Position numbers and translations under genes: made by a program
From: Armatimonadota bacterium
GTDB taxonomy: Bacteria; Armatimonadota; Hebobacteria; CAIYQO01
DNA length: 64,000 bases
Assembly (NCBI GenBank): GCA_029553475.1
Contig: JAKPKV010000028.1
Span: forward strand, 1 to 64,000
Reading direction: 5' to 3'
Part shown: piece by piece, positions 11,258 to 29,401 of the stretch
Layout of the letters: every line of letters starts with the position of its first letter
How positions within the stretch are numbered: position 1 is the stretch's first letter
The notes under the pieces: model-generated
Seen by the model: the letters and a program-made list of their open reading frames with translations, nothing else
Told to the model about the DNA's origin: nothing
Databases searched by the model: none

Positions 11258-11590
11258 TTATCCGCCGGCCATCGTGCGCAGGAGGAAGATGAGGAGGAGA
11301 AGGGCGAAGGGGGCGGCGATGATGAGCGGGCGATGCCGGCGCCAGCCGTAAATGGGCGCGAGCGTCCACAGGCCGCAGGCGGCGCCGATGACGGCGCCCC
11401 AGACGAGCCAGCAGAGCCAGGGCACGGCCGGCAGCAGGTCGGCGAGGAAGAAGCGGTCGAGGAAGGCGAAGGTGCCCTGGGAGACGACCGCAAAAAGCCA
11501 GTAGAGCGCGGACAGCAGCGGGCGGACCGCCACCGAGAGCAGCACGATGAGGGCGATGATGACCAGTACCCAGCTCAGCGCGGTGTCCAT
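11258..11590 (-). CDS. Small multi-pass membrane protein at the end of the kinase operon
   Basis: A 110-residue protein with three or four hydrophobic segments (LSWVLVIIALIVLLSVAVRP, LCWLVWGAVIGAACGLW, RPLIIAAPFALLLLIFLLR) and few polar loops. No family was recognised. It starts ten bases after the kinase stop and is on the same strand, so it is probably the last gene of the operon and may associate with the membrane-anchored kinase. Confidence 0.65.
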   Translation of the reverse strand: MDTALSWVLVIIALIVLLSVAVRPLLSALYWLFAVVSQGTFAFLDRFFLADLLPAVPWLCWLVWGAVIGAACGLWTLAPIYGWRRHRPLIIAAPFALLLLIFLLRTMAGG

Positions 11591-11600
11591 GCCCCTCCCC

Positions 11601-14033
11601 TCATGCCTTGCTCCCGCGCAGCGCGCGCACCCAGCACCAGCAGGCGAAGTAGATGCCCACCGCCAGCAGCAGGAAGGCGGTCACCAGCGGCCAGCGCGGG
11701 TACTCCAGATTGGTGATGCGCCCCCAGAGGCCGGGATCGAGGATGTTGTCGAGCGTGACGACGGATGATGCCGTGCTGTAGATGCTGTTGAGGATGGCGA
11801 GCACGAGACGCGGGAGCATGAGCAGCCCGGCGCCGATGCCCGCGCCGATGAGGCAGCGATTCACCGTTTCCGAGGTGGGATACTGCACCTCGAAGATGAA
11901 GCTGACCCGCCCGGCCAGCGCGGCAATGCCGCTGGTGAAGGTCAGCTCGACGGGATACTTTTTGAAGACGGCGATGTCGTGGGTGGAGTCAATGGTGAGC
12001 TCCACCGTCCCGTCGCGCTTGCGCACCAATCCGTCCACGATGGCGACGCCGGGCGGCGCATTGGCGAGGGTGAAGGCGCCGAAGGGCACGCCCGCGCTGC
12101 GTGTCCGGTAGCGGATGCTCACCGCGCGCTTTTGCCCGAAGAAGATCACGCTGCCCTGGGCGAGATGCGACAGGTCCGCCTCGAGCTGCACCGGCGGCAG
12201 CGCGGGATCGAGCAGGCGCAGGATGGTCTCGAAGGCGGCGGCGGGATCATCGGGCATCCCGTCGCGGATTTCGTCCGCCTGTTTGGCGAGCTCGATGAGC
12301 CCGCGCTGGCGCATCCAGGCGCAGAGGCCGCCTTCGAACCAGCGCTGATAGGCGGCGTCGTAACAGGCCGGCCGCTTGCGCTTCCAGTCTTCCGGCTTGC
12401 CGTAGGTGAACTCGACAATCTCCTTCGGCGTGCGCAGCGCCACCCCGCGCATCACGTAGTAGGGACGCTCCGGCTGGAAGAGGTAAGCGAGTTCCTCCAG
12501 CCGCACGCGCATGGGCGAATAGGCGATATCGAGCACGCCGTCCGCCAGCATCTCCTCCGGCTCCGCCTTCAGGCGGAGCCAGTGCTCGAGCTGGTGCAGC
12601 AGCACGTTGGTGGCATAGCCCTCGATGAGGCCGGGCGACTGGCTGACGACGTGGATGGCATGGCGCAGCCACTCCTCGGCGGTGTAGACTTCCGTGCCGT
12701 CGGCGAAGAGGAAGGGGCGGGTGGGATCGCAGCGGATGATGGCGCAGAGGAGGGCGACATCGGGCTGCTGGCGCCAATATTCGCGGTCGCGGCGAATCTG
12801 GCGGGCGAGGTTCGGGTCGAGGGTGCCGATCCAGTTGAGCAGCACCTCGCCGCCCATCAGGTCTTCCTTCGCCGTTTCCTGCTCGCGGGACATGGCGTCG
12901 GCGAGGGTGGGCAGGTCCACCGCCACCAGCTCCCCCAGGCGATAGGGTCGGCCGGCGCGCGCCAGCTCGTAGAACTCGTCATCGTGAATCTTCTGCAGGT
13001 CCGCGTCGCTGTTCTGCCCGGCGATCCAGCGCGCGACTTCCTCATATCCCCAGCGGGTGCGCCGGTTGCGGATGAGCAGGCCGCGCAGCAGCAGCGCCAG
13101 CCGGCTGGGGATGCCGCGCGGTATTTCCACGCGCCCGCCCTGCAGATAGAAGTCGAAGAGATCGGGCAACTGGCAGAGGTGCAGGCTGGTGGTGCCCATG
13201 AGCAGCTCGATGAGGGTGATGCCGAGGGAGTAATAGTCGCTGCCGCGGCTGATGCGCCCGCGGCGCGAGCTGGCGTGGTCATCCACGAAGCGCGGAAAGG
13301 CTTCCGGCGCGGTGTAGAGCCAGGTGCCGCCGGCGCGCTGGGTATCGCGGGAGGTGCGCGTCTGATCCAGCACGGAGGAGATATCAAAATCGGCGAGCAC
13401 CAGCGTCTCGCGCCCGCCCTCCTCTTTGATGTAGATATTCGCCGGCTTGATGTCGCGATGGACGACGTCATGTTCATGCAAATACCGCAGTCCTTCATTC
13501 ACCTGCGGGATGAAGGCGGACGCCACCCATTCCGGCGAGGCCGGGGGGACGCCGCTGCCCAGGCGGGGCACGCGGTCAAAGAGCGTGCCGCCGGCACAGT
13601 ATTCCTGCACCTCGCAGTAGAAGCCGTCGTCGTCCAGCGTGCGGTAGATGGTGAGGACATTCGGGTGATCGAGCCGGGGGAGCTTCTCCCAGAGCTCGGG
13701 TTTCGGCGGATAGTTGCCGGCGTAGACCTTGACGACGACCCGGCCTTCCGGCGCCTGGCAGAGATAGAGGCCCGGCCGCTCGGTTTCATGGGGATGGAGG
13801 GTGCATTCCACCCGGCAATCGCCGCAGAGGATGGCCCCAGGCGGCAGCACGCCCAGCGCCAGCCGGCGCCCGCCCTGCCGCACCCACTCCACGCGCACCG
13901 TGCCGTCTTCGCCCACCGTCATGCGGCGGGTGGCCACCGCCAGGTCCTCCCCCACGCGGCGCGTGGCGCCGTCCGCGCCCGCCGGCGCGTCGTCCTCTTC
14001 GGGGAAGATGACTTTCAGGGTATCATCCGTCAT
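11601..14033 (-). CDS. Membrane-anchored Ser/Thr protein kinase with C-terminal beta domain
   Basis: An 810-residue protein. The kinase domain covers about residues 85-345: K102 in VVVKVYAG, HRDIKPAN at 182-189, a metal motif reading DFD (205-207) instead of DFG, and APE at 232-234. Residues about 370-620 are helical and hold two similar units of the type W-x-LDP-LA...P-x-VAL...I-x-DP. An Ig-like beta sandwich (about 630-730) follows and then two membrane segments (LIGAGIGAGLLMLPRLVLAI and LVTAFLLLAVGIYFACWCWV). Its ATG overlaps the PP2C stop, so kinase and phosphatase are coupled. The DFD variant may still be active, since the metal-binding Asp is kept. Confidence 0.88.
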   Translation of the reverse strand: MTDDTLKVIFPEEDDAPAGADGATRRVGEDLAVATRRMTVGEDGTVRVEWVRQGGRRLALGVLPPGAILCGDCRVECTLHPHETERPGLYLCQAPEGRVVVKVYAGNYPPKPELWEKLPRLDHPNVLTIYRTLDDDGFYCEVQEYCAGGTLFDRVPRLGSGVPPASPEWVASAFIPQVNEGLRYLHEHDVVHRDIKPANIYIKEEGGRETLVLADFDISSVLDQTRTSRDTQRAGGTWLYTAPEAFPRFVDDHASSRRGRISRGSDYYSLGITLIELLMGTTSLHLCQLPDLFDFYLQGGRVEIPRGIPSRLALLLRGLLIRNRRTRWGYEEVARWIAGQNSDADLQKIHDDEFYELARAGRPYRLGELVAVDLPTLADAMSREQETAKEDLMGGEVLLNWIGTLDPNLARQIRRDREYWRQQPDVALLCAIIRCDPTRPFLFADGTEVYTAEEWLRHAIHVVSQSPGLIEGYATNVLLHQLEHWLRLKAEPEEMLADGVLDIAYSPMRVRLEELAYLFQPERPYYVMRGVALRTPKEIVEFTYGKPEDWKRKRPACYDAAYQRWFEGGLCAWMRQRGLIELAKQADEIRDGMPDDPAAAFETILRLLDPALPPVQLEADLSHLAQGSVIFFGQKRAVSIRYRTRSAGVPFGAFTLANAPPGVAIVDGLVRKRDGTVELTIDSTHDIAVFKKYPVELTFTSGIAALAGRVSFIFEVQYPTSETVNRCLIGAGIGAGLLMLPRLVLAILNSIYSTASSVVTLDNILDPGLWGRITNLEYPRWPLVTAFLLLAVGIYFACWCWVRALRGSKA

Positions 14034-14854
14034 GGGTACGGTCGTTCACCGAGCTGCACCACCACCACGGTGGCATTGTCCTGGCCGTCCATCGCCACGG
14101 CGCCGCGGACCAGCGCCGCCGCGAGCTTCTCCGCATCATGCTCCTTGCGCATGAGCGTGCGGATGGTCGCGCGCGGCAATCCGCGCCCGAGGCCATGCCA
14201 GCCGTCGGTGCCGACGAGGAAGAGCTCGCCCGGCGCCCAGGCCAGATCAATATTCACCGCCACCCGGTGGTCTCCCTTCTGCCCGAGGGAGCAGGTGAGC
14301 TGGGTGGCTTCCGGGCGGGCGATCGCGTCGTCCTCGCTGATGAGGCCGGAATCCACGTCCGGGCCGAGCAGGGTGTGGTCCACGGTGAGCGCGCGCACGT
14401 AGCCGGCGCTGCCGCGCAGCACCCGGCTGTCGCCGGCGTGAAAGATCACCAGGTAGTCGGGGGCCATGAGGGCGACGCCGGCGAGGGTGGTGCCGGCGTC
14501 GGCGTATTCGCGCGAGCGTTCGAGCGTCTTCGTCAGCACCTTCTGCGTCTGCTGCAGATAGCGCTCCAGGCTGGCGGCGAGCTCGCGGATATCGCAGCCG
14601 CGGCGCGTCTCGCCGTAGTAGAGCGCGGTGAGCGTCTCCAGCACCACGCGGCTGGCCACGTCGCCGCCGGCGTAGCCGCCCATGCCGTCCGCCACCGCGG
14701 CCAGGAGGCCGTAATCACGGAAAAACGCGGAGTCGCGATCCACGGTGAGGGTGGTCAGCGTCTCCTGCTCGACGAAGGAACCCAGGCAGTAGTGGTCGTC
14801 GTTCTTCTCCCGCGCGGTCCCGCGGTCACCGATGGCGGCGGCGCGAATCAGCAT
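14030..14854 (-). CDS. PP2C-type protein phosphatase
   Basis: A 274-residue metal-dependent Ser/Thr phosphatase. The conserved aspartates are present in GTAREKNDDHY, LLAAVADGMGGYAGGDVAS, FLVGTDGWHG and AMDGQDNATVVVVQ. The domain fills the whole protein; there is no membrane segment. It follows the FHA gene after two bases and overlaps the kinase start. It is expected to reverse phosphorylation made by the kinase, with the FHA protein reading the phosphothreonine. Confidence 0.9.
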   Translation of the reverse strand: MLIRAAAIGDRGTAREKNDDHYCLGSFVEQETLTTLTVDRDSAFFRDYGLLAAVADGMGGYAGGDVASRVVLETLTALYYGETRRGCDIRELAASLERYLQQTQKVLTKTLERSREYADAGTTLAGVALMAPDYLVIFHAGDSRVLRGSAGYVRALTVDHTLLGPDVDSGLISEDDAIARPEATQLTCSLGQKGDHRVAVNIDLAWAPGELFLVGTDGWHGLGRGLPRATIRTLMRKEHDAEKLAAALVRGAVAMDGQDNATVVVVQLGERPYP

Positions 14855-14856
14855 GC

Positions 14857-15375
14857 TCAGCTCCCGGCGATCTTCACGCGAAAGGTGGTGAGGGAGAGCA
14901 CGAGCACCGAGCCATCGTAGATGGGCACTTCCTCCTGTCCCTTATACATTTCGCCATCCACCTTGATGAAGTTCGTCGAGCCCAGGTGGGTGACGAGCCA
15001 CTGCGCCCCGTCGCGCCACAGGCGGGCATGGCAGCCGGAGATATAGTCGAGGTTGGGCACGCCGACGAGGGCGACGTCGGCCTTATGATTGCGGCCCACC
15101 GTCTGCCCGTCGAGCACGGTGAAGTGGATTTCCGGATTCTCGACCAGCTCGAGCGCGCAGGCGGCCGCGTCGCGGCGCTTGCCCACTTTCAGCGTTTCGG
15201 GATCCTCTTCGCCGTCGGGCACGCTGGGCTCCGCCATCGCCGCGCGCGCGTCGCGCTTCGGCTCCACCGGCACGGTAGTCAGGTCGCCGTCCGCGCAGGA
15301 CACGCAGAAGGCGGCCTGGCGGGGGTTCTCCGCGCCGCACAGCGGGCAATATTTCACGAACTGCAGATCGCTCAT
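14857..15375 (-). CDS. Zinc-ribbon plus FHA domain protein
   Basis: A 172-residue protein. Residues 9-28 are a zinc ribbon (CPLCGAENPRQAAFCVSC) and residues about 85-170 an FHA domain that binds phosphothreonine: TVGRNHKAD for the Gly-Arg, ISGCHARL for the Ser-x-x-His and LGSTNFIKVDG for the late loop. The middle is acidic and probably disordered. Its ATG overlaps the radical-SAM stop. In other bacteria such proteins act as phospho-dependent adaptors between a kinase and its targets; the Clp-like ATPase of this operon is a candidate target. Confidence 0.88.
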   Translation of the reverse strand: MSDLQFVKYCPLCGAENPRQAAFCVSCADGDLTTVPVEPKRDARAAMAEPSVPDGEEDPETLKVGKRRDAAACALELVENPEIHFTVLDGQTVGRNHKADVALVGVPNLDYISGCHARLWRDGAQWLVTHLGSTNFIKVDGEMYKGQEEVPIYDGSVLVLSLTTFRVKIAGS

Positions 15376-16004
15376 TCCTGTACCTTTTCTCGCAACGCCG
15401 CCATCGCCTGGCGGTAGGCGGCCACATCGCCGCGCCGGGGGATGCCGATCACGCGGAAGCTGACGGGCGTCACCATCTGCACCTGCAGCGGGCGCGGCTC
15501 CGGCATCGGCAGCGCCGCTTCCGCCGCGTAACGCCCTGCCCGCGGGCTGAGCAAGTGCACGCGCTGATTATCCGATCCCCGCCACCGCCGGGTATTCGGC
15601 GCGGATTCCATGAACGGCCCGTCAATGAGCAGGTCCAGCCGGTCGAGGAGGGCGGCGGCGTCTCCCCCACCCGCGCGCAGCTCTTCCAGCAGGAAGCCGG
15701 TGTAGACGAGCACCTCGACGTCCACGTCCTCGCGCAGCCGGTCAATGAGCGCGCAGAGCGCCGCCGCCTGATTGAACGGCTCGCCGCCGGAAATGGTGAG
15801 GCCATCCACGCCGGCGAGCTGCGGCAGCAGCTCGCGCGCCAGCGGCTCGATGGGCAGCGCTTCGCCAGGCTCCCACATTTCCGGCGCGATGCAACCGGGA
15901 CAGCGGCGGCCGCAGCCGCGCACCCAGAGGATGCCGCGCCGCCCGGGGCCCAGCCCTTCGACCGGGCACGCGTAGCCGGCGTAATCAAGCAGGGACGTGC
16001 GCAT
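15372..16004 (-). CDS. Small radical-SAM activase-like protein
   Basis: A 210-residue protein with the radical-SAM cluster motif C31-x3-C35-x2-C38 (WVRGCGRRCPGCIAPEMW) and the SAM-binding LTISGGEPF. It resembles anaerobic ribonucleotide reductase activase (NrdG) and pyruvate-formate-lyase activases in size and N-terminal order, but no glycyl-radical enzyme gene is nearby. The start at 16004 follows GGAGAGG; it lies within the 3' end of the ATPase gene. Residues 165-210 form an extra C-terminal part. What it modifies is unknown. Confidence 0.8.
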   Translation of the reverse strand: MRTSLLDYAGYACPVEGLGPGRRGILWVRGCGRRCPGCIAPEMWEPGEALPIEPLARELLPQLAGVDGLTISGGEPFNQAAALCALIDRLREDVDVEVLVYTGFLLEELRAGGGDAAALLDRLDLLIDGPFMESAPNTRRWRGSDNQRVHLLSPRAGRYAAEAALPMPEPRPLQVQMVTPVSFRVIGIPRRGDVAAYRQAMAALREKVQE

Positions 16005-18099
16005 CGGCCTCTCCGGCGGCATCGTCGGGCGTCTCCGGCGCGGGCGCCGCTTCTCCCGGCATCGCATCGCCGACGGCGATCTCCAGCTCATCCTTCACGA
16101 CGACGATCTCGTCCTCCGGCTCATCGTCTTCTTCCGGCGCTTCCGCGTCTTCCAGCATCTCCCAGGTGATATCGTAGCGGTGATCGCCGGAGGTTTTCGG
16201 CGGGATGATCCCGGACACCCGCAGGCGCTTGCGGCGGAGATCGCCATATTCCTGCAGCAAGAGGAACAGCACGCGCGAGAGCGGATTGAGGACGGCGGTC
16301 TCGGCGAGGTTGCCGATGCCGCGGCCGCCGGAGGCGACGTCAGCGCCGCCGACTTCCATCAGTTTGTCAATGACCTCCTGGGCGAAGATCACCTCCAACC
16401 CCCAGCTCTCCGCGACCTGGCGGCTGATGGAGGGGAGCACGCGGCGCTCGAGGATGAGCTGTTTCACCGGCTGGCGGATGAAGTCGAAGACGATGATGTT
16501 CTGCCCGATGCGGTTGAGCAGCTCCGGGCGCCCCAGGTAATGTTTGAAGTACGCCTGCACGCCCTCCAGCATGCGCAGGCGCACGTCCTCGTAGCGGATG
16601 TGGATCTCCGGGTCCACGTGCAGCACGGGCTGGCGGGTGACGGGGTCCACCATCGGCCGGCCGGTATTCGGATCGAGCTTGTACGTCCCCACGTTGCTGG
16701 TGAAGATGATGATGCTCTCGGAGAAATAGACGGTATCGCCGCGGCCGTCGGTCATGCGCCCGTCCTCGAGGATCTGCAGGAATTTGTCCAGGATGCTCGG
16801 ATGCGCCTTCTCCACTTCGTCGAAGAGGATGACGCGGAAGGGGTTCGCCTTCACCTGATTGGTGAGCTGGCCCCCTTCCTCGTAGCCGATGTAGCCCGGC
16901 GGGGCGCCGAGCAGGCGCTGATCGGCGTGGGACTGGCTGTATTCGCTCATGTCGAAGCGGATGCAGGCTTCGTCGGTGCGGAAAACCAGCTCGGCGATGG
17001 CTTTGGCGAGCTCCGTCTTCCCCACCCCGGTGGGGCCGGCGAAGAAGAGGACGCCGCGCGGCTTGGTGCGGCTGGCGTGCTGGGCGCCGGAGAGATTGAG
17101 GCGGGCGCGGCGGAGCATATCCGCCACCGCGCTGACCGCCGCCGGCTGGCCGATGACGCGTTTTGCCAGCTCCGCCTCCGCGGTATCCAGGCGTTTCCAG
17201 TCCAGCCGATCCCATTCGCTCTCCTGGACGCCATATTTATAAAAGTCCACGAGCGATTTCGCGGTCATCGCGGTGCTTTCCGGACGGCGGGCGAGGGCGC
17301 GGATGCCGCAGAGGTCGCGGACGGTCATCCCCTCGGTCAGCTCTACCAGGTCAGCGGGTTCGAGGCGAGCGCCGACCTGCGCTTTCTTGCCCGGCTTGAG
17401 GAACAGGTCGAAGAAGTGTTTGCGCTCTGCGCCGCGCGGGACATCCACCTCAATCCCCCCCGTGAAGGGGTTGTTCAGGTAGAGCCAGACGGGGAGATCG
17501 GTGAGCTTGTCGCAGAGCAGCACCAGCAGGTTCTGCAGCACGCGGCGGCTTTCGCCCTCGCCGGAGGAGACGAGCTGGCTTTCGCCGGAGGCTTTGAGCA
17601 GGCGCAGGAAGCACATGCGCTCGCCGGTGTTCAGGCTGGCGGGCGAGGTGGCTAACTGGGTGGCGTTTTCGATGATGAAGACGCACGGGCGCGAACGGTT
17701 CACGAGCGAGAGCCGCATCTGCTGCAATGCCTGTTCCAGCGGCGATTCCGGATTCGTCGGCTGCGGCACCCGGCCTTTGTAGGCGGAGTGCATCGCCTTC
17801 TCGCCCTCGTTGAGGATCTCCTCGTACAGCCGTGCCATGGTATTGGCGTCGCGGCCGTCGGCGAAGACCATGCCGTCCACCAGGTTATAGGCGGCGACGA
17901 CTTCATAGCCGGGGATGCGGTGGCGAAAGAGCTCAAACAGCGCCTGGCGCATGGGCCCCAGCGTCCAGCTTTCGCGCTCGCCGCCCACGGGGAAGAGCAC
18001 GGTATCCTTGATATTGCCATACAGGTAGAGCTGGGTCTTATAGGCCGCGAGGCGCTCGACATCGCGCATCCAGTGCGGCAGCAGTTCCGGTGCGGTCAT
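15985..18099 (-). CDS. Clp-like AAA+ ATPase with degenerate N-terminal module
   Basis: A 704-residue protein. Residues about 315-650 are a ClpA/ClpB D2-type AAA+ module: Walker A GPTGVGKT at 355-362, the substrate pore loop GYIGYEEGG near 402, Walker B ILFDEVEKAH at 424-433, and arginine finger region GRPELLNR at 523-530. Residues 1-300 look like a second AAA-type module without a Walker A (a hydrophobic PCVFIIENATQL could be a degenerate Walker B). The last 45 residues are acidic. No Clp N domain and no ClpP-docking loop are seen, so an unfoldase or remodeller is more likely than a protease subunit. Confidence 0.85.
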   Translation of the reverse strand: MTAPELLPHWMRDVERLAAYKTQLYLYGNIKDTVLFPVGGERESWTLGPMRQALFELFRHRIPGYEVVAAYNLVDGMVFADGRDANTMARLYEEILNEGEKAMHSAYKGRVPQPTNPESPLEQALQQMRLSLVNRSRPCVFIIENATQLATSPASLNTGERMCFLRLLKASGESQLVSSGEGESRRVLQNLLVLLCDKLTDLPVWLYLNNPFTGGIEVDVPRGAERKHFFDLFLKPGKKAQVGARLEPADLVELTEGMTVRDLCGIRALARRPESTAMTAKSLVDFYKYGVQESEWDRLDWKRLDTAEAELAKRVIGQPAAVSAVADMLRRARLNLSGAQHASRTKPRGVLFFAGPTGVGKTELAKAIAELVFRTDEACIRFDMSEYSQSHADQRLLGAPPGYIGYEEGGQLTNQVKANPFRVILFDEVEKAHPSILDKFLQILEDGRMTDGRGDTVYFSESIIIFTSNVGTYKLDPNTGRPMVDPVTRQPVLHVDPEIHIRYEDVRLRMLEGVQAYFKHYLGRPELLNRIGQNIIVFDFIRQPVKQLILERRVLPSISRQVAESWGLEVIFAQEVIDKLMEVGGADVASGGRGIGNLAETAVLNPLSRVLFLLLQEYGDLRRKRLRVSGIIPPKTSGDHRYDITWEMLEDAEAPEEDDEPEDEIVVVKDELEIAVGDAMPGEAAPAPETPDDAAGEADAHVPA

Positions 18100-19457
18100 A
18101 CCTCATCTACTTTCCTGGAGTGTTGCGCGGCGGCGGTTGCCGCGGCGGACTCCTCGCGACCCGGCAGCGTGACGACCTGCAGGCGCTCGCCTTCTTTCAC
18201 GGTGATGCGATATTTTTCGCGGACGTACCATTCGCGATCGCGCAGGCTGACGAGCACGCGCTCCACCAGCGCGCAGACCTTCTCTTTTGTCTCGGCGTCG
18301 GCCACGGCGTGCTGCTCGGAGAAGGCCACCACTTCCGTCTTCAGGTGGCCGGCGCCGTCGGTGTGGAAGGAGACGCCCACGCGGCCGTCGGCGGCGGCGA
18401 TGAGCGCCGGGCTGTCCGTCTCCCCCTGCCCCGGCACCAGGGAGACCTGATAGCCCAGCGAGAGGAGCACTTCGCGCACCTGCTCGCTGATATAGGCGGA
18501 AACCGCCTGCTCCTCCAGCGCGCGCCGGCAATCTTCGTACAGCTGCGCCGCCTCGTCCGCCATGCCGCGCACGCGCTCCAGCTCATCCTCGGCGGTGGCG
18601 AGGGCATTGGCCAGCGCCGCCAGCAGCGCCTCGGCCTGCGCGCGGTAGTCCGGCAGCACGGTCTGCGAGGCGAGGGCCTGCAGCTTGGCCAGCGTGTCAC
18701 CGACGAGCAGGCGCATCTCCTCGGCGGCTTTCGCGCGCTGTTCGCGACGGTCCGCCTGCCATTGCGCTTCACGATGGATGCGCTCGCGCAGCAGCGAGAC
18801 CCCCTGCCCGGCGATATCGGGATTGCGCGCCAGCATCGTCTCCAGCGCGTCGGCCTGGGCCACGAGCTGCGCTTTGGCCGCGGCGTAGTCGGCGGTGGCG
18901 AACAGCGGCGACGCGAGCTCCTCGCGCAGGGCGGACAGCTCGCCGGCCAGCGCGCTTCTCGCGGCGGGCGCGCCGGCGGCGGCGGCCGCGACGGCGTCGG
19001 TCAAGCGGTGATACTGCTCGACGTAGAGGCCCAGCTCACCGGTGGCCTCTTCCAACGCCATGCGCAGCTGCGCGCACTGCGCGGCCAGCGAGGGATCGGG
19101 GGTGGGCGCGCCGTCAATGCGCTCCGCGAGGGCGGCAAGGCGCCCCTGCAGGAACTCGACGGTGGCATCCATCTCGCGGCGAAGCTGGGTGCGCTTCGCC
19201 AGCGCCATCGCCGCCTGATCGGCGCCGCGCTGGGCGGACGCCGCCGCCGCGCGCTCCGCTTCCTCGGCGGCCGAGCGCGTGGCAAAGGCATCCCGCGCGG
19301 ACAGGTAATCGTGATTTAATTTTTGAATGGCGAGATAGGCGCCGTAGGCCGCGCCGCCGACGACGGCCAGCGCGGCCACCGAGCTGAGGATCGGCGTAAT
19401 GACCGGCACCAGCGACGGGGCCGCCGGCGCCACGAAGACATCATGAAATCCACTCAT
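18096..19457 (-). CDS. Membrane-anchored coiled-coil protein, first gene of the kinase/ATPase operon
   Basis: A 453-residue protein of unknown family. A single hydrophobic segment lies at about residues 20-46 (PILSSVAALAVVGGAAYGAY). Residues 50-320 are Ala/Glu/Arg-rich and predicted coiled coil. Residues about 325-430 look like a folded domain (ISEQVREVLLSLGYQVSLVP, then DREWYVREKYRITVKEGER). Its stop overlaps the ATPase start. It could act as a membrane scaffold that presents substrates to the ATPase; that is inference from shape and position only. Confidence 0.75.
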   Translation of the reverse strand: MSGFHDVFVAPAAPSLVPVITPILSSVAALAVVGGAAYGAYLAIQKLNHDYLSARDAFATRSAAEEAERAAAASAQRGADQAAMALAKRTQLRREMDATVEFLQGRLAALAERIDGAPTPDPSLAAQCAQLRMALEEATGELGLYVEQYHRLTDAVAAAAAGAPAARSALAGELSALREELASPLFATADYAAAKAQLVAQADALETMLARNPDIAGQGVSLLRERIHREAQWQADRREQRAKAAEEMRLLVGDTLAKLQALASQTVLPDYRAQAEALLAALANALATAEDELERVRGMADEAAQLYEDCRRALEEQAVSAYISEQVREVLLSLGYQVSLVPGQGETDSPALIAAADGRVGVSFHTDGAGHLKTEVVAFSEQHAVADAETKEKVCALVERVLVSLRDREWYVREKYRITVKEGERLQVVTLPGREESAAATAAAQHSRKVDEV

Positions 19458-19725: not shown

Positions 19726-19949
19726 GGGAAAAATTCCGCCATCGCGGGCGATTTTTCGATTTTTTTGTGGAATAGGTATACTGGCGCTGACGCCGAGGAG
19801 GCTGCCAAGACCTTTCTCGACCGCAGATGCGCGCACCAGCGCGGGCACGTTCCCGGCCTGGTCGCTGCCCACGCGCCATCCAGACAGTACTGGCGCCGCA
19901 TGGCCGAGCGGTCTGTCCGCTGCCCGCGGGGCACGGAGTTCACGATACG

Positions 19950-20861
19950 ATGTTAGCGATGCAAGAGCAGATCATGCGATCATCCGTCGAAGACGCGACA
20001 GCACGCGACCGCGCCGCACACGGGCCGGCGGAACCGTGTCCGTCGGCGCTGCCCGCGGGGCACGGCGCATTCCTGCACCGGGTGCACGCGGATGCCGTCC
20101 CTCCCCTGGCCGAGGCGCTACGCGCGCTGCTCCCGACGGCGGTCGTCAGCGCGCAGGCCTTCTCGGTGACGCCCTATTCCCAGGCGCCCGCTCACCCGCA
20201 CGTGCTGTCCTTCCGCGCCGACAGCGGTCCAAGCGGCACCATCACCTGCTCCCCATCGCTGCTCGCCCACCTGCTCGATCATCTGCTGGGGAGCGACGGC
20301 ATCCCCGCGACACTGGCGGAGGAGATGAGCGCGCTCACGCAGGCCTTCCTCTGCCAGACGCTGGCCGAGCTGCTGCCCGCCTATGCGACCGCCTGGGCAG
20401 ACCATCTCCCCCCGGCGTCCTTCCGCGCGACGCCCGCGGTGACCATCGCGCCGGACACCCCGGCCTTTCTCGCCGAGTACGCGGTGACGCACGGCTCCGG
20501 CCGCGGCACGGTCACCGTGCTGCTGCCCCTGCCGACCTGGGCGCCGCTGCTGGCGGCCCGCGCGCCGGCGGCGCCGGCGCCCCGCCGCGATCTCGCGCCC
20601 ACGTCGCCCCTGCTGCAGGCCATCGGCACCTGCCTGCTGCCGGTGCGCGCGATCCTGGGACGCACCCACGTCAGCGTCGAGGAGTTGTTGGACTTGCGCC
20701 CCGGCGATATCATCTGCCTGGACCAGCCGGGCGATGCGCCGGTCGCCATTCATATCGGCGCGCGGCCCCGGCTGCAGGGCCGCGCGCGGGTGGTTGAGGG
20801 CCAGTATCACATCACCATCACCCCATCCATGACAGAGGGAGAGGCACATGGATCTGAATGA
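19950..20861 (+). CDS. fliM: Flagellar motor switch protein FliM-like
   Basis: A 303-residue protein whose C-terminal SpoA domain (VRAILGRTHVSVEELLDLRPGD, key part LGRTHVSVEELLDL, then ARPRLQGRARVVEGQYHITI) fits FliM of the flagellar C-ring. The middle is a recognisable but divergent FliM CheC-like region. The usual N-terminal EIDALL motif that binds phosphorylated CheY is not seen. The start is uncertain: ATG at 19950 with GGAG eleven bases upstream was chosen; ATGs at 19959 and 19974 are alternatives. It heads the flagellar operon and overlaps fliN by 14 bases. Confidence 0.8.
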   Translation: MLAMQEQIMRSSVEDATARDRAAHGPAEPCPSALPAGHGAFLHRVHADAVPPLAEALRALLPTAVVSAQAFSVTPYSQAPAHPHVLSFRADSGPSGTITCSPSLLAHLLDHLLGSDGIPATLAEEMSALTQAFLCQTLAELLPAYATAWADHLPPASFRATPAVTIAPDTPAFLAEYAVTHGSGRGTVTVLLPLPTWAPLLAARAPAAPAPRRDLAPTSPLLQAIGTCLLPVRAILGRTHVSVEELLDLRPGDIICLDQPGDAPVAIHIGARPRLQGRARVVEGQYHITITPSMTEGEAHGSE

Positions 20862-21255
20862 TCTGCTGGCGGACGTTGACGGCATCGGCGGCGACTACTA
20901 CGTGCCGTCACAGCCGGCCGACGCGCCCGGCGACGCTCCCGGCGACGCGCCCACCGCGGGCGAACCCGTCACGGCGGCCGCGCCGGCGGCGCCTCCGCCC
21001 GCCGACGCCTTCACCGACGCCCTGGAGATGGTGCGCGACGCGGAGATGGAGATGGTGGTGGAGCTCGGCACGGCGCACCTGCCGCTGCGCGACGTGATCG
21101 CGCTGGCGGACGGCGGCGCCTTCACCTTGCCGACCCGTCCGGAGGATCCGGTAAAAATCTTCGTGGCCGACCAATGCATCGGTCACGGCGAGGCGCTGCT
21201 CATTGACGGGCGGCTGGCCATTCGCCTGCTCGAACTCTACCAATTTACCGCCTAA
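20848..21255 (+). CDS. fliN: Flagellar motor switch protein FliN
   Basis: A 135-residue protein with one SpoA domain (MVVELGTAHLPLRDVIALAD, ending EALLIDGRLAIRLLELYQF), the C-ring component below FliM. The first 60 residues are an Ala/Pro-rich linker with repeated APGDAPGDAP-type sequence. The ATG follows GAGAGG and lies inside the end of fliM, so the pair is translationally coupled. Confidence 0.85.
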   Translation: MDLNDLLADVDGIGGDYYVPSQPADAPGDAPGDAPTAGEPVTAAAPAAPPPADAFTDALEMVRDAEMEMVVELGTAHLPLRDVIALADGGAFTLPTRPEDPVKIFVADQCIGHGEALLIDGRLAIRLLELYQFTA

Positions 21256-21283
21256 CGAACTCCGTGTTCCGCCAAGCGAGGTG

Positions 21284-21892
21284 ATGATGCGTGTCCTCCT
21301 GACGCTCTGCCTGTTGCTGCCGATTGTCGCCGTCCCGGCGCAGGTGCGGCCATCCGCGCCCCCGCCGGTGACGGGGGTGACGACCCACGCGCCACCCGCC
21401 GACGCCAACCCGGAGGCGTCACGTCCGTGGAAATCCGACACCCGCGCGACCGACGCGCCGGAAGCGCCCCGCGACAAAGGCGCGGCGGCGCGGGTGCTTG
21501 ACACCGTCCTGAACCTGGCGCTGGTGCTGGTGCTCGCCTACGTGGCGATGCTGGGCGTGAAGCGCTACCTGGCCGGCACCCTGCGCCTGCCCGGCCTGCC
21601 GGCCAAAGCGCAGCCGCGCCTGCTGCAGGTGGTGGAAACGCTGCCGCTGGCACAGGGGCGCAGCCTGTATCTGGTGCGCGCCGGCGCGCGCACCTATCTC
21701 ATCGGCGCCGCCGGCCAGCAATTCATCCTGCTGGGCGAGGTGACCGGCGATGGCGCCATCGAGGCGGCGCTGCCGCCGGCGACCCCGGCCACCTTCGACG
21801 CGGCGCTCGCGCGGGTACTCCCCGCCGCCGGCCTGCCCGACCGGGAGCAAACCGGTCCGCCCGCACCTGCCGACAGACGTGACGCGCGTTGA
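21284..21892 (+). CDS. fliO: Flagellar biosynthetic protein FliO
   Basis: A 202-residue protein with an N-terminal signal-like segment (LLTLCLLLPIVAVPAQV), a Pro/Ala-rich periplasmic linker, one membrane helix (LNLALVLVLAYVAMLGVKRY) and a cytoplasmic FliO domain (LLQVVETLPLAQGRSLYLVR). FliO assists assembly of the FliP ring. The start is at one of two adjacent ATGs after GCGAGG. Position directly before fliP is the normal order. Confidence 0.82.
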   Translation: MMRVLLTLCLLLPIVAVPAQVRPSAPPPVTGVTTHAPPADANPEASRPWKSDTRATDAPEAPRDKGAAARVLDTVLNLALVLVLAYVAMLGVKRYLAGTLRLPGLPAKAQPRLLQVVETLPLAQGRSLYLVRAGARTYLIGAAGQQFILLGEVTGDGAIEAALPPATPATFDAALARVLPAAGLPDREQTGPPAPADRRDAR

Positions 21893-21906
21893 AGGACCCC
21901 CACCCG

Positions 21907-22665
21907 ATGCCTACGCGACTGACCATATGCATCATCGTCTTGCTGGGCTGCCTGTTTGCCCCCGTCGCGGCGCAAGCGCCGACGCCGGCGATTCCCGACA
22001 TCTCGCTCACCATCGGGAACAGCGGCGGCGAGGTACAGGACGTCTCCAACAGCCTGCAGATGCTCTTCATCCTGACCGTGCTGAGCCTGGCGCCGGCGAT
22101 CATCATGCTGGCGACCAGCTTCTCACGGATCGTCATCGTCCTCGGCTTCACCCGCCAGGCGCTGGGCGCCCAGCAGATTCCGCCGAACAGCGTGCTCATC
22201 GGGCTGGCGCTGTTCCTCACCGCGTTCACCATGGCGCCGGTGTGGACGGCGGTGGATGCCCAGGCGGTCCAGCCCTATCTGGCCCATCAGCTCACCTACA
22301 AGGACGCGCTGACGCGGGCGATGTATCCGATCCGCGACTTCATGTTCCGGCAGACGCGCGAGAGCGACCTGACCCTCTTCGTGGAGATGGCCCGCATCGA
22401 GCAGCCGCGCACGCGGGCGGACATCCCGAGCTGGGTGCTGGTGCCGGCGTTCGTCATCGGGGAGCTGCGCACCGCGTTCACCATGGGCTTTCTCATCTTC
22501 ATCCCCTTTGTCGTCATTGATCTGGTGGTGGCGACGATTCTCATGTCTATGGGCATGATGATGATGCCGCCGGTGCTCATCTCGCTCCCCTGCAAGATCA
22601 TGCTCTTCGTGCTGATTGACGGCTGGGCGCTCATCGCGCAAAGCCTGGTACACAGTTTCCGTTGA
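21907..22665 (+). CDS. fliP: Flagellar export gate protein FliP
   Basis: A 252-residue protein with a signal peptide (ICIIVLLGCLFAPVAAQA) and the FliP core: LSLAPAIIMLATSFSRIVIV, GFTRQALGAQQIPPNSVLIG, PSWVLVPAFVIGELRTAF and MGMMMMPPVLISLPCKIM. FliP forms the export gate of the flagellar type III apparatus with FliQ and FliR. The ATG at 21907 with GAAGGA upstream is preferred over a TTG at 21889 that overlaps the fliO stop. Confidence 0.95.
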   Translation: MPTRLTICIIVLLGCLFAPVAAQAPTPAIPDISLTIGNSGGEVQDVSNSLQMLFILTVLSLAPAIIMLATSFSRIVIVLGFTRQALGAQQIPPNSVLIGLALFLTAFTMAPVWTAVDAQAVQPYLAHQLTYKDALTRAMYPIRDFMFRQTRESDLTLFVEMARIEQPRTRADIPSWVLVPAFVIGELRTAFTMGFLIFIPFVVIDLVVATILMSMGMMMMPPVLISLPCKIMLFVLIDGWALIAQSLVHSFR

Positions 22666-22675
22666 GGAGGCGCGC

Positions 22676-22945
22676 ATGACCGAAGTGACGATTCTCGAGC
22701 TCATCAAACAGGCGCTGACCGTAGGCATCAGCGTGTCGGCGCCGCTGCTCATCGCCAGCCTGGTCGTCGGCGCGATCATCGGCATCCTCATGGCCGCGAC
22801 GCAAATTCAGGAATTCACGCTGACCTTCGTGCCGAAACTGCTGGCGCTGGCGACCATCCTGCTCATCGCCGGACCGTGGATGCTGCGCAGCCTGACGACC
22901 TTCGCGCTGATGATCTTTCAGAAGCTGCCGTCGGTGGCGCCGTAA
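22676..22945 (+). CDS. fliQ: Flagellar export gate protein FliQ
   Basis: An 89-residue protein with two membrane helices and the FliQ pattern (LIASLVVGAIIGILMAATQI, QEFTLTFVPKLLALATILLI). It has a strong GAGGAGG five to six bases before the ATG and lies ten bases after fliP. Confidence 0.95.
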   Translation: MTEVTILELIKQALTVGISVSAPLLIASLVVGAIIGILMAATQIQEFTLTFVPKLLALATILLIAGPWMLRSLTTFALMIFQKLPSVAP

Positions 22946-22966
22946 CGCCGCCCGGAGCGGGACACG

Positions 22967-23746
22967 ATGGACTTTCTCGGCCTGACAACAGGACAGATCG
23001 TGCTGCTGCTGCTGATCTTCGCGCGGGTGGGCGCGATCAGCTTCACCGCGCCGGTGATCAGCAACCCGCGGGTGCCGCCGCAGATCAAGGCGGGGCTGGG
23101 GCTGGCGCTCACCTTCGCCTTCTACAGCCTGGCGGCGCGCGGCGCGGCGATCGCCGCGCCGACGATCCCGATCTTCGCCCTGCTGCTCATCAAGGAGGTG
23201 GTCGTCGGGGTGGTCATCGGGTATACGGCGAACCTGCTCTTCAACGTGGTGCAGATGGCCGGCGAGATGCAGGACAACCAGGCGGGGTTCAGCTTCGCCG
23301 GCGTGGTGGACCCGAACATGGGGCACGGCGCGGCGATCCTCGGCCAACTGCAGATGACGATGATGTGGCTGATCTTTTTCGCGGTGAACGGCCACCTGCT
23401 GCTCATCCGCGGCATCGGGGAAAGTTTCCTCGCCATCCCGGTGGGCAGTTTCAGCTACGACCCGCAGGTGACGCCGTACATGTTCAGTCTGGCGACCACG
23501 CTGATGATGACGGCGGTGAAGATCAGCGCGCCGATCATCTGCGCCGTGCTGCTGGCCGACCTGGCGATGGGCATGCTGCAGCGCACGGCGCCGCAGTTGA
23601 ACCTGATCGCCGTGGGCTTTCAGGTCAAAATCGGCGTGGCGGTGGTGATGCTGCTGCTGGCGCTGCCGCTGGTGGCCGTGCTGCAGCGCGACCTGATCCC
23701 GTTCAACGCGCACGTGCTGCAGAAACTCTATACGTTTTTCAGGTAA
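22967..23746 (+). CDS. fliR: Flagellar export gate protein FliR
   Basis: A 259-residue protein with about six membrane helices and the FliR landmarks (ARVGAISFTAPVISNPRVPP, EMQDNQAGFSFAGVVDPNMG, LADLAMGMLQRTAPQLNLIA). It completes the FliPQR gate complex. It follows fliQ by 21 bases. Confidence 0.95.
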   Translation: MDFLGLTTGQIVLLLLIFARVGAISFTAPVISNPRVPPQIKAGLGLALTFAFYSLAARGAAIAAPTIPIFALLLIKEVVVGVVIGYTANLLFNVVQMAGEMQDNQAGFSFAGVVDPNMGHGAAILGQLQMTMMWLIFFAVNGHLLLIRGIGESFLAIPVGSFSYDPQVTPYMFSLATTLMMTAVKISAPIICAVLLADLAMGMLQRTAPQLNLIAVGFQVKIGVAVVMLLLALPLVAVLQRDLIPFNAHVLQKLYTFFR

Positions 23747-23775
23747 CGACATACCTTTTTAGGTGACGACACGCA

Positions 23776-24837
23776 ATGATGGAAGGCCAGGAACGCACCG
23801 AACAAGCCACCCCGCGGCGGCGGGAAGACGCCCGCAAGAAGGGCCAGGTGGCGCGCAGCTTCGAGCTGACCGCCACGCTCAGCCTGCTGATCGGGGTGCT
23901 GGCGCTGCAGGCCACGGCGGGGCCGATGCTGCGCACCTGGCGCGCCTTCGCCGAGGAGAGCATCGCGCGCGCGTCGGCGTTTCAGCTGTCCATCCCGACG
24001 GTGCAGACGGAAATGACGATGGCGGGCCTCAGTTTTCTGGGCATGATGCTGCCGCTCTTATTGGTCTTGGGCACCGCCAGCCTGGCGGCGAATATGCTGC
24101 AGGTGGGCTTCCTGTTCTCGTCGCAGGCGCTGGCCTTCGATTTCAGCAAGCTCAATCCGCTGCAAGGCATTGCGCGCATGTTCTCCATGCGTTCGTTCGT
24201 CGAGATGGTGAAGTCGCTGCTGAAGGCGGGGGCCATCACCTGGGTCATCATTGATTTTTTCAAGACGCGCACGCCGCAGACGCTGGAGATGCTGCAGGAT
24301 GATTACGACGCGTTGGGGCCGGCAATCTTCACGCTGGCGATATCGCTGCTGCTCCGCGCCGCCGCCGTGCTGCTGGTGATCGCCATCGCGGATTACGCCT
24401 GGCAGCGCTGGCAATTCGAGAAATCCCTGCGGATGACCAAAGAGCAGGTGAAGGAAGAATACAAACGCACGGAAGGCGACCCGATGGTGAAGGGACGCAT
24501 TCGCGGCAAGCAGCGCACGCTGGCGCGGCAGCGCATGATGGCCGCCGTGCCCACCGCCACGGTGGTGGTGACGAACCCGACGCACCTGGCCGTGGCGCTG
24601 CGCTATGAGCCAGCGACCATGGACGCGCCGCGGGTGGTGGCAAAGGGCCAGCGGTTGGTGGCGGCGCGCATCAAGGAGATCGCCAAACAGCACGGCGTGT
24701 CGGTGATCGAGAACAAACCCATCGCGCGGGCGCTGTATAACGCCTGCGAGGTCAACGACGCTATTCCGCTGGAACTCTATCGCGCGGTGGCGGAAATCAT
24801 CGCGTTTGTCTTAAAACAGTCAGGACGCGGGGTATAA
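23776..24837 (+). CDS. flhB: Flagellar export switch protein FlhB
   Basis: A 353-residue protein with four N-terminal membrane helices and the cytoplasmic autocleavage domain. The NPTH cleavage site is at residues 267-270 (VVTNPTHLAVALRY). It begins ERTEQATPRRREDARKKGQV, the typical start. FlhB sets the change from rod/hook to filament export. Separate genes for FliR and FlhB are kept here, unlike the fused form of some clostridia. Confidence 0.95.
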   Translation: MMEGQERTEQATPRRREDARKKGQVARSFELTATLSLLIGVLALQATAGPMLRTWRAFAEESIARASAFQLSIPTVQTEMTMAGLSFLGMMLPLLLVLGTASLAANMLQVGFLFSSQALAFDFSKLNPLQGIARMFSMRSFVEMVKSLLKAGAITWVIIDFFKTRTPQTLEMLQDDYDALGPAIFTLAISLLLRAAAVLLVIAIADYAWQRWQFEKSLRMTKEQVKEEYKRTEGDPMVKGRIRGKQRTLARQRMMAAVPTATVVVTNPTHLAVALRYEPATMDAPRVVAKGQRLVAARIKEIAKQHGVSVIENKPIARALYNACEVNDAIPLELYRAVAEIIAFVLKQSGRGV

Positions 24838-24840
24838 TTC

Positions 24841-26946
24841 ATGCCAATTCGCGATCTCGTCAACCGCATAGTGCAGGGTATCGCCGGCGCGTCGGATTTA
24901 CAGGCGCCGCTGCTGTTCGTCATCGTGCTGGCGATGCTCATTCTCCCGATGCCGAGCTGGCTGCTGGACTTCTGTCTCGTCATCAACATCGCGCTGACGT
25001 TCTTGGTGCTGCTGCGCACGGCGAGCGTCGCGCACCCGCTGGAGTTCTCCGTCTTCCCCTCGGTCCTGCTGGTCACCACGCTGCTGCGGCTGGCGATGAA
25101 CATCTCCGCCACGCGTTTGATTCTGGGGTCCGGCGACGAATTCGGCGCGGGACAGATCATCCACGCCTTCGGGACGTTCGTCATCGGCCAGAACGTGGTG
25201 GTCGGGGTGGTGATCTTCGTGATCCTGGTCATCATCCAGTTCGTCGTCATCACCGCCGGCGCCGGGCGCGTGGCGGAGGTGGCGGCGCGCTTCACGCTGG
25301 ACGCCATGCCGGGCAAGCAAATGGCCATTGACGCCGACCTGAACGCGGGGATGATTGACGAGCGGGAAGCCCGCCGCCGTCGTGAGGAGGTGGGCAAGGA
25401 GGCGGACTTCTACGGCGCGATGGACGGCGCGAGCAAATTCGTGCGCGGCGACGCCATCGCCGCCGTGGTGATGATCATCATCAATGTCCTCGGCGGATTC
25501 GCGGTGGGCATGTTGATTCACAAGCTGCCGCTGCAAGAGGCGGTGCTGCAGTATACCGTGAAGACCGTCGGCGAAGGCATCGTCACGCAGATTCCCGCGC
25601 TCATCATGTCCATCGCCACCGGCCTCATCGTCACCCGCGCCACCTCGGAATCGAATCTGGGGGAGGATTTGAACCTGCAGATCCTCGGGCAATACCGCAC
25701 GGTGGGCATCGCGGCGGTCATCATGGCCAGCTTCATGCTGGTCCCGCAACTGCCAAAACTGCCGTTCATGCTCGGCGCCGGGGCGCTGGGCTACCTGGCC
25801 TACCGGCAGTGGAAGCGCGCGAAGGACGCGCCGCCGGCCGCGACGGACGACGAGGCCGCGGCGGGCGCGCCGGCGCCGGCCGCGGCGGACGATATGCTGT
25901 CGCTGCTCTCGCTTGATCCCATCGAAGTGGAGATCGGGTACGGCCTCATCCACCTGGCGGACCCGGCCCAGGGCGGCGACCTGCTGGAGCGCATCACCAC
26001 GCTGCGCAAGCAGATCGCCATGGAGCTGGGCTTCGTGGTGCCGCCGGTGCGCGTGCGCGACAACATTCAATTGAAGAACAACGGCTACAGCATCAAGCTG
26101 TGGGACATCGAGGTGGCCCAGGGGGAGATCGTGCCGCGCTTCCTGCTGGCGATGAATCCCGCCGATCCCGACACCGTCTTTCCCGGGGCCATTCCCACCC
26201 GCGAGCCGGCGTTCGGCCTGCCGGCGCAGTGGATACAGGAAGCGCAGAAGATGCAGGCGGAAGTCGCCGGCTTCACGGTGGTGGATCCGACGACCGTGCT
26301 GGTGACGCACTTGAGCGAAGTGATTCGCGGCCACGCGCACGAGGTGCTCGCGCGGCAGGACGTACAGGGACTGCTGGACAAGGTCCGCGCGGCGGCGCCG
26401 GCGCTGGTAGACGATCTGGTGCCCAAAGTCATCAGCCTGGCGGAGGTCCACCGCGTCCTGCAGAACCTGCTGCGCGAGCGCATCTCCATTCGCGACATGA
26501 ACCGCATCCTCTCCACGCTGGGCGACTACGCGCCCAGCGTGCGCGAGGTGGATCAGCTCACCGAGCACGTGCGACAGGCGCTGGCGCGGGTGATCAGCAG
26601 CCAGTATCGGGGCGCGGACGGGCCGATTGACGTCATCACCCTCCATCCCGACGTGGAAGACCTGCTGCTGAACAACCTGCGGCCGACGCAATACGGCCTG
26701 CAGATCGTGCTCGATCCCGCGTCGGCGCAGGCGCTGCTGCTGAATTTGAAGGCGCAGGTTGAGCGGATGGTCGGGCTCGGCTATCAGCCGGTGCTGCTCT
26801 GCTCGACGCAGCTGCGCCTGTACCTGCGCCGTTTCGTCGAACGCTTTATGCCCGGCATCACGGTGCTGTCCCATGCCGAGGTCGCGCCGGGCGTGCAGGC
26901 GCAATCCCGCGGTGAAGTTACCCTCGCCGCGCCCATTCTCGTATAA
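24841..26946 (+). CDS. flhA: Flagellar export protein FlhA
   Basis: A 701-residue protein, full length for FlhA. Residues about 18-325 hold eight membrane helices with the conserved cytoplasmic loop (RFTLDAMPGKQMAIDADLNA, then GKEADFYGAMDGASKFVRGD). An Ala-rich linker (about 335-355) leads to the C-terminal domain that docks chaperone-substrate complexes. The end (AEVAPGVQAQSRGEVTL) is close to the family's usual end. It begins three bases after the flhB stop. Confidence 0.95.
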   Translation: MPIRDLVNRIVQGIAGASDLQAPLLFVIVLAMLILPMPSWLLDFCLVINIALTFLVLLRTASVAHPLEFSVFPSVLLVTTLLRLAMNISATRLILGSGDEFGAGQIIHAFGTFVIGQNVVVGVVIFVILVIIQFVVITAGAGRVAEVAARFTLDAMPGKQMAIDADLNAGMIDEREARRRREEVGKEADFYGAMDGASKFVRGDAIAAVVMIIINVLGGFAVGMLIHKLPLQEAVLQYTVKTVGEGIVTQIPALIMSIATGLIVTRATSESNLGEDLNLQILGQYRTVGIAAVIMASFMLVPQLPKLPFMLGAGALGYLAYRQWKRAKDAPPAATDDEAAAGAPAPAAADDMLSLLSLDPIEVEIGYGLIHLADPAQGGDLLERITTLRKQIAMELGFVVPPVRVRDNIQLKNNGYSIKLWDIEVAQGEIVPRFLLAMNPADPDTVFPGAIPTREPAFGLPAQWIQEAQKMQAEVAGFTVVDPTTVLVTHLSEVIRGHAHEVLARQDVQGLLDKVRAAAPALVDDLVPKVISLAEVHRVLQNLLRERISIRDMNRILSTLGDYAPSVREVDQLTEHVRQALARVISSQYRGADGPIDVITLHPDVEDLLLNNLRPTQYGLQIVLDPASAQALLLNLKAQVERMVGLGYQPVLLCSTQLRLYLRRFVERFMPGITVLSHAEVAPGVQAQSRGEVTLAAPILV

Positions 26947-26975
26947 TACACGTATTGGTCTGACAAGGAACGACT

Positions 26976-27968
26976 ATGGCACTACGCAAATTTACCGCCG
27001 CGACCGTGGAAGAGGCTTTCGCGCAGATCGAGCGCGAGCTAGGCGGGGAGGCCATCATCCTCGACACGCGGACATCGCTGATCGAACGCGCGCCCGGGGC
27101 GGCGCCGGCCGAACAGGTCGAAGTCTGGGTACAGGAGCCGGACGCGCCGCCGGCGCCGTCCGCGGATGCGCCCGCGGCATCGCCGGACGCCGCGGCGCCC
27201 GACGCCCTGGCTGACGACCTGTCCCGCCTGCGCGCGCGGGTGCAGGCCGTCCACGCGCAGCTCGACACGCTGGCGCAGCGGCTGGATTGGCTGGGCGCCG
27301 CCGGCAGCGCCCTGCCCGGGGAGTTCGCGCTGTCCGTCGCGGAGGGACTGGCGCGCAATCTGCCGTTTTCGAGCGCCCTGCCGGACGCGCCGGCGCGCGT
27401 GGCGCTCATCGGCCCGTCCGGCGTGGGCAAGACGACGTGCCTCGCGCGGCTGGCGTATCATGCCCGGCGCGACGGTCACGCGGTCGGCGTCATCTCCGCG
27501 GACACCATCCGCCTCGGGGCGCGGGAGCAAATCACCACGCTCTGCGAGCATGGGGATTTCCCGTTAGCCTTCGTGTATCATCCCGCGGACGTTGGCGACG
27601 CGCTGCGGCGCGTGGAGGGATGCGCGCTGGTGCTGCTCGACACGCCGGGGATCAACCCGCGCCAGCCCGAGGACGGCGCCTGGCTGGCGGAGCTGCTGGC
27701 GGCATTTGATCCGGCACAGGTGCACCTGGTGCAGCCGGGCAGCGTCTCCGGCGCGGCGCTGCGCGACACGCTGCAGGCTTACGCGCGCTTCACGCCGGAT
27801 CACCTGCTCATCACCAAGATGGACGAAGCGGCGTACCTGGTGGACCTGCTGCCGGTCATCGCGCAGAGCGGGCTGGCGCTCAGCTTTTTCGGGATGAGCG
27901 CGTCGGTCACCGAGACGCCGTTGCCGGCCACGGCCGCGCGGCTGGCGCAGGCGCTGCGGCTGGCGTAA
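26976..27968 (+). CDS. flhF: SRP-type GTPase FlhF
   Basis: A 330-residue protein with the FlhF start (RKFTAATVEEAFAQIERELG, then AIILDTRT), a Pro/Ala-rich linker and the NG GTPase domain: GPSGVGKTT at 146-154, ISADTIRLGAREQ and LLDTPGINPR. The G4 motif TKMDE is present. FlhF sets where and how many flagella form. Usually flhG follows; here a 68-residue membrane protein does. Confidence 0.9.
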   Translation: MALRKFTAATVEEAFAQIERELGGEAIILDTRTSLIERAPGAAPAEQVEVWVQEPDAPPAPSADAPAASPDAAAPDALADDLSRLRARVQAVHAQLDTLAQRLDWLGAAGSALPGEFALSVAEGLARNLPFSSALPDAPARVALIGPSGVGKTTCLARLAYHARRDGHAVGVISADTIRLGAREQITTLCEHGDFPLAFVYHPADVGDALRRVEGCALVLLDTPGINPRQPEDGAWLAELLAAFDPAQVHLVQPGSVSGAALRDTLQAYARFTPDHLLITKMDEAAYLVDLLPVIAQSGLALSFFGMSASVTETPLPATAARLAQALRLA

Positions 27969-27989
27969 CGTCAGCACACGGAGGCGCGG

Positions 27990-28196: not shown

Positions 28197-28255
28197 TTTT
28201 TGCGACGGTCATACGGAAATCGTGCCGCATGTGGAAGGAGTATGAGGAAGACTTC

Positions 28256-29014: not shown

Positions 29015-29025
29015 CCCCGCCGATG

Positions 29026-29392: not shown

Positions 29393-29401
29393 GAGGCTGC
29401 G

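Follow-up and report, generated by a model that had tools for sequence, protein, structure and literature searches.

We found that a trio of genes, encoding a coiled-coil partner, an AAA+ ATPase and an NrdG-like radical-SAM protein, is the invariant unit of a seven-gene cassette on the minus strand of contig JAKPKV010000028.1 from an Armatimonadota bacterium (assembly GCA_029553475.1, positions 1 to 64,000; this whole stretch of 64,000 nucleotides is called the window below). An initial annotation, made from the sequence alone, had taken the six-gene set of the trio, a zinc-ribbon/FHA adaptor, a PP2C phosphatase and a kinase as the unit; a conserved multi-gene system was indeed present, with the trio as its constant part and kinase, PP2C and FHA swapped for other genes elsewhere. 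On balance, and with modest confidence, we read the trio as the core of a mobile family gated by a nucleoside triphosphatase (NTPase), phospho-controlled in the window and likely serving as a conflict or stress switch. The system is apparently undescribed within what could be searched: no already named system turned up in the model libraries or literature, and a literature search that left subscription papers and preprints outside its reach found no paper on the trio.

Linkage and co-divergence of the core trio

We compared 30 loci of the ATPase family with 76 ordinary Clp-type control loci. The family loci span several phyla and were gathered within the window's phylum, in named genomes and on plasmids; the controls had been returned by a contig scan using a single protein as query. 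A radical-SAM profile matched 26 of the 30 family loci and none of the controls (one weak control match appeared in a run at a looser threshold), and a profile of the coiled-coil C-terminal domain matched 27 of 30 and again no control, where several of the loci had served in profile building and some were not independent of each other (four lie on Rhizobium plasmids, some of them almost identical; the window and its sister-species locus L105; L109 and L110). The loci left out of profile building, L110 and L168-L171, carry both genes. Apart from L028 and the decayed locus L111, the misses of either profile all lay at contig ends; this was so for three of the four radical-SAM misses, leaving L028 as the sole true one. 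This Croceicoccus locus holds an ATPase copy with neither a radical-SAM nor a coiled-coil gene within 10 kb. Pairwise distances among the ATPases and among the radical-SAM proteins were correlated (Mantel r 0.91, p 0.0001, n=21).

The surrounding cassette is also conserved. In the sister species, L105 holds the whole cassette between the same flanks. The seven genes are also found together in L106, which belongs to a different family of the phylum and whose ATPase is 58% identical to that of the window. The ratio of nonsynonymous to synonymous substitutions between the window and the sister species was 0.05-0.14, indicating purifying selection on all seven genes. A chance assembly, which the initial annotation had named as an outcome that would undo its proposal, was rejected, since the set recurs in the sister species and L106 and the trio in further loci, the trio is linked, and ATPase and radical-SAM protein co-diverge.

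Exchangeable modules around the trio

The kinase, PP2C and FHA genes are one of several exchangeable modules around the trio. They accompany it in three separate ATPase clades: that of the window, a second that adds a vWA protein, and a third with L115, L155 and L156. Elsewhere the trio is found with an SF1 helicase that matches MkoA models and a PIN protein (Moellerella, Polaromonas, Acinetobacter, Photobacterium and Leisingera plasmids), with a kinase-DUF4011-helicase-MTES nuclease fusion (Rhizobium and Caballeronia plasmids), with a DO-GTPase (L109, the paralogue in the same genome) or with GAP1-N2 (Rhodopirellula L027). On the ATPase tree, which has some long branches and weak support at its deepest joins, every module set is confined to one or two clades; the distribution takes 7 changes, where shuffling gave 19.5 on average. 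Module sets of these kinds are characteristic of conflict systems, known or predicted. This wider gene company points to conflict or defence-type biology, which the initial annotation had not proposed.

Two of these loci have further features. L109 (G000:C5:28000-47999) is the second trio of the window's own genome, and there a DO-GTPase2-like gene and HEAT-repeat proteins stand in place of kinase, PP2C and FHA. In L117, on the Acinetobacter plasmid pNDM1_010055 (an NDM-1 carrier, judging by its name), the trio, SF1 helicase and PIN genes precede two others, which encode a small AAA protein and a second radical-SAM protein.

The distribution of the ATPase family is patchy. Strong matches occurred in 11 of 291 genomes of the window's phylum, and the family is present on 20 plasmid records. 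No match was found in phage records, nor in two IMG/VR scans with short exact peptide patterns, which find close relatives only; on these results a phage-borne system was rejected. A search for copies in E. coli returned Clp-type D2 matches only.

A pseudo-AAA module joined to a ClpB-type motor

Full-length relatives of the ATPase aligned over a common N-terminal module of about 300 residues in which W, GNxxD, P, R and G positions vary little or not at all and a Walker A motif is missing; an intact ClpB-type motor follows. The ATPases constitute a distinct family in which a pseudo-AAA first module is joined to a ClpB-type second motor (D2). Classical AAA proteins (VCP, Vps4, spastin) have a sensor and lid region that the N-module resembles by profile. 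The AlphaFold model (confidence score pLDDT 79) matches two-ring ClpC/ClpB structures, and Foldseek matched the D2 part to ClpB NBD2 at 36% identity. The motor has its Walker A and B motifs, aromatic pore loop and Arg finger, so that the intact pore loop and degenerate first module reported in the initial annotation are borne out by GYIGY and by the missing Walker A. The protein falls outside ClpB and ClpC proper: its first module has no Walker A, and it scored 237 bits against a curated ClpB cut-off of 1232. Weaker matches in the phylum came from ATPases of about 580 residues (L134-L150), in which the same N-module precedes a classical AAA motor with GPPGTGKT, and which we take to resemble Ycf46.

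The radical-SAM protein and its candidate substrate

The radical-SAM protein carries the CxxxCxxC and GGEP motifs and the Fer4_12 domain of the NrdG-like superfamily. CxxxCxxC was intact in 18 of 18 aligned copies, with GGEP and RGSxNQ-type motifs in nearly all. If this protein were simply a spare activase of the anaerobic ribonucleotide reductase NrdD in a loosely related operon, then a match to the NrdG model TIGR02491 would be expected in a genome that encodes NrdD, and both are seen (E 1.3e-25; 90.1 bits, below the curated cut-off of 126.1). The sole NrdD of the genome, however, lies on C76 with its own Fer4_12 activase gene beside it (C76:23150), and on this ground the window protein was rejected as the NrdD activase. 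In other phyla its relatives lie next to ATPases of this family, and the two proteins co-diverge, which makes the spare-activase reading very improbable. The genome's two best Fer4_12 matches both belong to trio loci. The cassette itself contains no glycyl-radical enzyme, in agreement with the initial annotation.

An alternative would cast the protein as a radical enzyme for small molecules, viperin-like or otherwise, that makes a signal or chain terminator and is itself just gated by the ATPase and coiled-coil pair. It draws on the conflict-like setting and on weak matches of PADLOC pVip models to the Moellerella homologue. We consider this alternative improbable, as the protein has the NrdG-type CxxxCxxC and WRGSxNQR motifs, finds its best match in NrdG, and in its window copy has no PADLOC match. 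The radical-SAM protein most likely acts on the coiled-coil partner, the only other constant member.

Coiled-coil partners vary across the family in length and in the coiled coil itself. Their N-terminus is Met-Ser throughout, mostly MSG and often MSGxPKY, where some starts were picked by us among in-frame candidates. The C-terminal domain contains a Gly-Phe/Tyr pair and a Cys in every copy, the five held-out ones included; in four divergent rows the Cys was misplaced by automatic alignment and was read from the sequences. Its AlphaFold model (helix, four strands, helix, strand) had no significant fold match in PDB. The partner is not itself a recognisable glycyl-radical enzyme, for it offers merely the Gly-aromatic pair and the Cys, with no glycyl-radical domain bearing RVxGY and no Pfam Gly_radical or NRDD match. 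With its invariant Ser2, Gly-aromatic pair and Cys, we hypothesise that it is a candidate substrate of the radical-SAM enzyme.

Gene content of the window cassette

Seven minus-strand open reading frames (ORFs) run from 19457 to 11258 (Table 1), and the ORFs, Pfam/NCBIfam searches and motifs agreed with the initial annotation on gene number, gene families and five tight junctions. Coiled-coil and ATPase genes overlap by 4 bp, ATPase and radical-SAM by 20 bp (with the homology-chosen start of the latter), radical-SAM and FHA by 4 bp, and PP2C and kinase by 4 bp; gaps of 2 bp and 10 bp separate FHA from PP2C and kinase from the small protein, which leaves five of the six junctions overlapping or no more than 2 bp apart.

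Table 1. Features of the cassette, in window coordinates.
Feature	Position	Strand	Basis and remarks
Coiled-coil partner, 453 aa	18096..19457	-	start MSG; N-terminal transmembrane segment; conserved C-terminal alpha/beta domain
Coiled-coil partner, C-terminal domain, residues 295-428	18174..18575	-	alignments; AlphaFold pLDDT 83.5
Coiled-coil partner, invariant Gly335-Tyr336	~18455-18450	-	alignments
Coiled-coil partner, invariant Cys395	~18275-18273	-	alignments
ATPase, 704 aa	15985..18099	-	pseudo-AAA first module and ClpB-type second AAA module
ATPase, pseudo-AAA N-module	17188..18084	-	GNxxD; no Walker A; conserved W, P, R, G residues
ATPase, ClpB-type D2 motor	16264..17196	-	GPTGVGKT, LFDE, pore loop GYIGY, RPELLNR
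NrdG-like radical-SAM protein, 210 aa	15372..16004	-	CxxxCxxC ~15914-15891, GGEP, WRGSxNQR; start 16004 picked by homology, ORF could open at 16091
Zinc-ribbon and FHA adaptor, 172 aa	14857..15375	-	
PP2C phosphatase, 274 aa	14030..14854	-	metal-binding motifs intact
Ser/Thr kinase, 810 aa	11601..14033	-	kinase domain ~residues 60-345; C-terminal transmembrane helices
Small membrane protein, 110 aa	11258..11590	-	three predicted transmembrane segments; conserved in L105 and L106

In Pfam/NCBIfam, ATPase residues 303-611 matched AAA_2/ClpB D2, the radical-SAM protein matched Fer4_12/NrdG-like models, and the FHA, PP2C and protein kinase families were recognised; the coiled-coil partner, the small protein and the N-terminal 300 residues of the ATPase had no match. 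PADLOC matches on the cassette were limited to generic D2 motor, kinase and weak coiled-coil or PP2C models. The PP2C motifs DGMG, GDSR, TDG and DN and the kinase motif HRDIKPAN are intact. In L105 (13477-16644), PP2C and kinase form one frame of 1055 residues, with a deletion of about 85 bases at the junction.

Hydropathy supported transmembrane segments in the coiled-coil partner (N-terminal), the kinase (C-terminal) and the small protein, in keeping with the membrane location that had been proposed for the cassette. Membrane anchoring is chiefly a trait of the window clade; an N-terminal segment was predicted in the coiled-coil partners of the window, L105 and L106, and beyond that clade in L156 only. 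Elsewhere in the window, two long minus-strand frames of 821 and 748 residues (40122-42587 and 61719-63965) had no Pfam match and may be spurious in GC-rich DNA.

Comparison with known systems

In the sections covered here of Kaur et al. 2020 (PMC7159879), DO-GTPase/GAP1 and kinase/PP2C/vWA sets are components of predicted conflict systems. As far as those sections go, the GTPase- and MoxR-vWA-centred systems likewise have an NTPase switch, exchangeable partners and a kinase, PP2C and vWA theme, but differ from the present family, in which the motor is a pseudo-AAA/ClpB-D2 hybrid accompanied by an NrdG-like radical-SAM protein and a coiled-coil partner. The same sections name a radical-SAM domain once, in FtsH systems, and no mention of the trio was found in them. 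Both DO-GTPase and GAP1 are absent from the window cassette.

Six core loci hold vWA, PP2C and kinase together (seven have vWA) and in this resemble TerY-P, which we take to consist of that triad without a ClpB-type motor, radical-SAM protein or coiled-coil partner; the triad is present in sister-clade loci, and the window has no vWA. A likeness to Mokosh is seen in the plasmid loci, whose helicase reaches E 7e-102 with MkoA models, and in L116, which fuses kinase, helicase and nuclease. However, the helicase occurs in other clades only and is absent from the window cassette, and no Mokosh model covers the coiled-coil partner, the motor or the radical-SAM protein. Dodola DolB, PADLOC PDC-M37B and ClpB/ClpC have the ClpB-type D2 motor in common with the ATPase; the matches are confined to D2, whereas D1 is here the pseudo-AAA module also found in the ~580-residue classical-motor ATPases. 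NrdG activases share fold family, CxxxCxxC, GGEP and RGSxNQ with the radical-SAM protein, which differs in its sub-threshold score and in a cassette lacking a glycyl-radical enzyme. The type VI secretion phospho-pathway, presumably PpkA/PppA/Fha with ClpV, also combines kinase, PP2C, FHA and a Clp-type ATPase. The ClpV model scored 191 on the window ATPase against a cut-off of 885, over D2 only, and no other type VI secretion gene was recognised near the cassette in the ORFs examined, no genome-wide search for Tss genes having been made.

Discussion

The initial annotation had linked phospho-signalling genes with an NrdG-like radical-SAM protein and a Clp-like remodeller; this is supported, and a mechanism can be proposed around it. 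The ATPase would form a hexameric unfoldase with an ATP-dead AAA-like first module, probably a docking ring, and a live ClpB-type motor, whose intact pore loop and nucleotide sites suggest ATP-driven threading. The second core member would be the NrdG-like radical-SAM enzyme and the third the coiled-coil partner with its MS(G) start and small C-terminal domain; the unfoldase would remodel this partner and the radical-SAM enzyme would modify it by radical chemistry. In the window, kinase and PP2C would control how far a component is phosphorylated. FHA domains bind phosphothreonine; most likely, then, kinase and PP2C together decide what the FHA domain recruits, and the zinc-ribbon/FHA protein may read this phosphorylation and bring a substrate or partner to the unfoldase. 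The window assembly would be held at the membrane through the coiled-coil partner, kinase and small protein, whereas elsewhere in the family the core would be wired to DO-GTPase/GAP1 or helicase/nuclease effectors. Its most likely role would be that of a threshold switch in conflict (anti-phage or anti-plasmid) or in a stress response, a suggestion that comes from the company of the core in other loci and not from the window itself. Only tentatively do we extend this to a new class of conflict or stress system in which unfoldase and NrdG-like enzyme radicalise or modify a partner domain that is not a glycyl-radical enzyme, and thereby arm or threshold interchangeable outputs.

Several observations weigh against the reading of the cassette as a conflict or stress switch. 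The window copy adjoins a flagellar cluster (19827-32892; FliM/N-type, FlhB, FlhA, FliD) and is not in a defence island; within the genus it has been inherited vertically. This would suit housekeeping or a role in stress as well. The copy also has no recognisable effector enzyme. The kinase carries DFD in place of DFG, the Gly-aromatic motif of the coiled-coil partner may be a mere structural turn, and no PADLOC model matches the trio. If the cassette served housekeeping phospho-signalling at the envelope or under stress, then the kinase would sense an envelope signal, FHA would recruit the Clp-like motor to clear or remodel a membrane-associated protein, and the radical-SAM protein would maintain a cofactor or partner, with no defence role in the window clade. 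The membrane segments, the place beside flagellar genes kept in two species, the strong purifying selection and the lack of a nuclease effector in the window clade are all consistent with this. Sister clades, in contrast, accompany nucleases, helicases and DO-GTPase/GAP1, several of them on plasmids, and the presence of the family in just 11 of the phylum's 291 genomes also counts against this reading, which we regard as possible and rather unlikely.

For the trio as a likely conflict or stress switch, the invariant residues of the coiled-coil partner make both the trio and the substrate claims directly testable. If the reading is true, an unfoldase paired with an NrdG-like radical-SAM protein without a classical glycyl-radical enzyme would widen the known targets of activase-type radical enzymes, and the trio, present in plasmids and chromosomes of several phyla with four kinds of partner module, would be a new conflict or stress regulatory unit.

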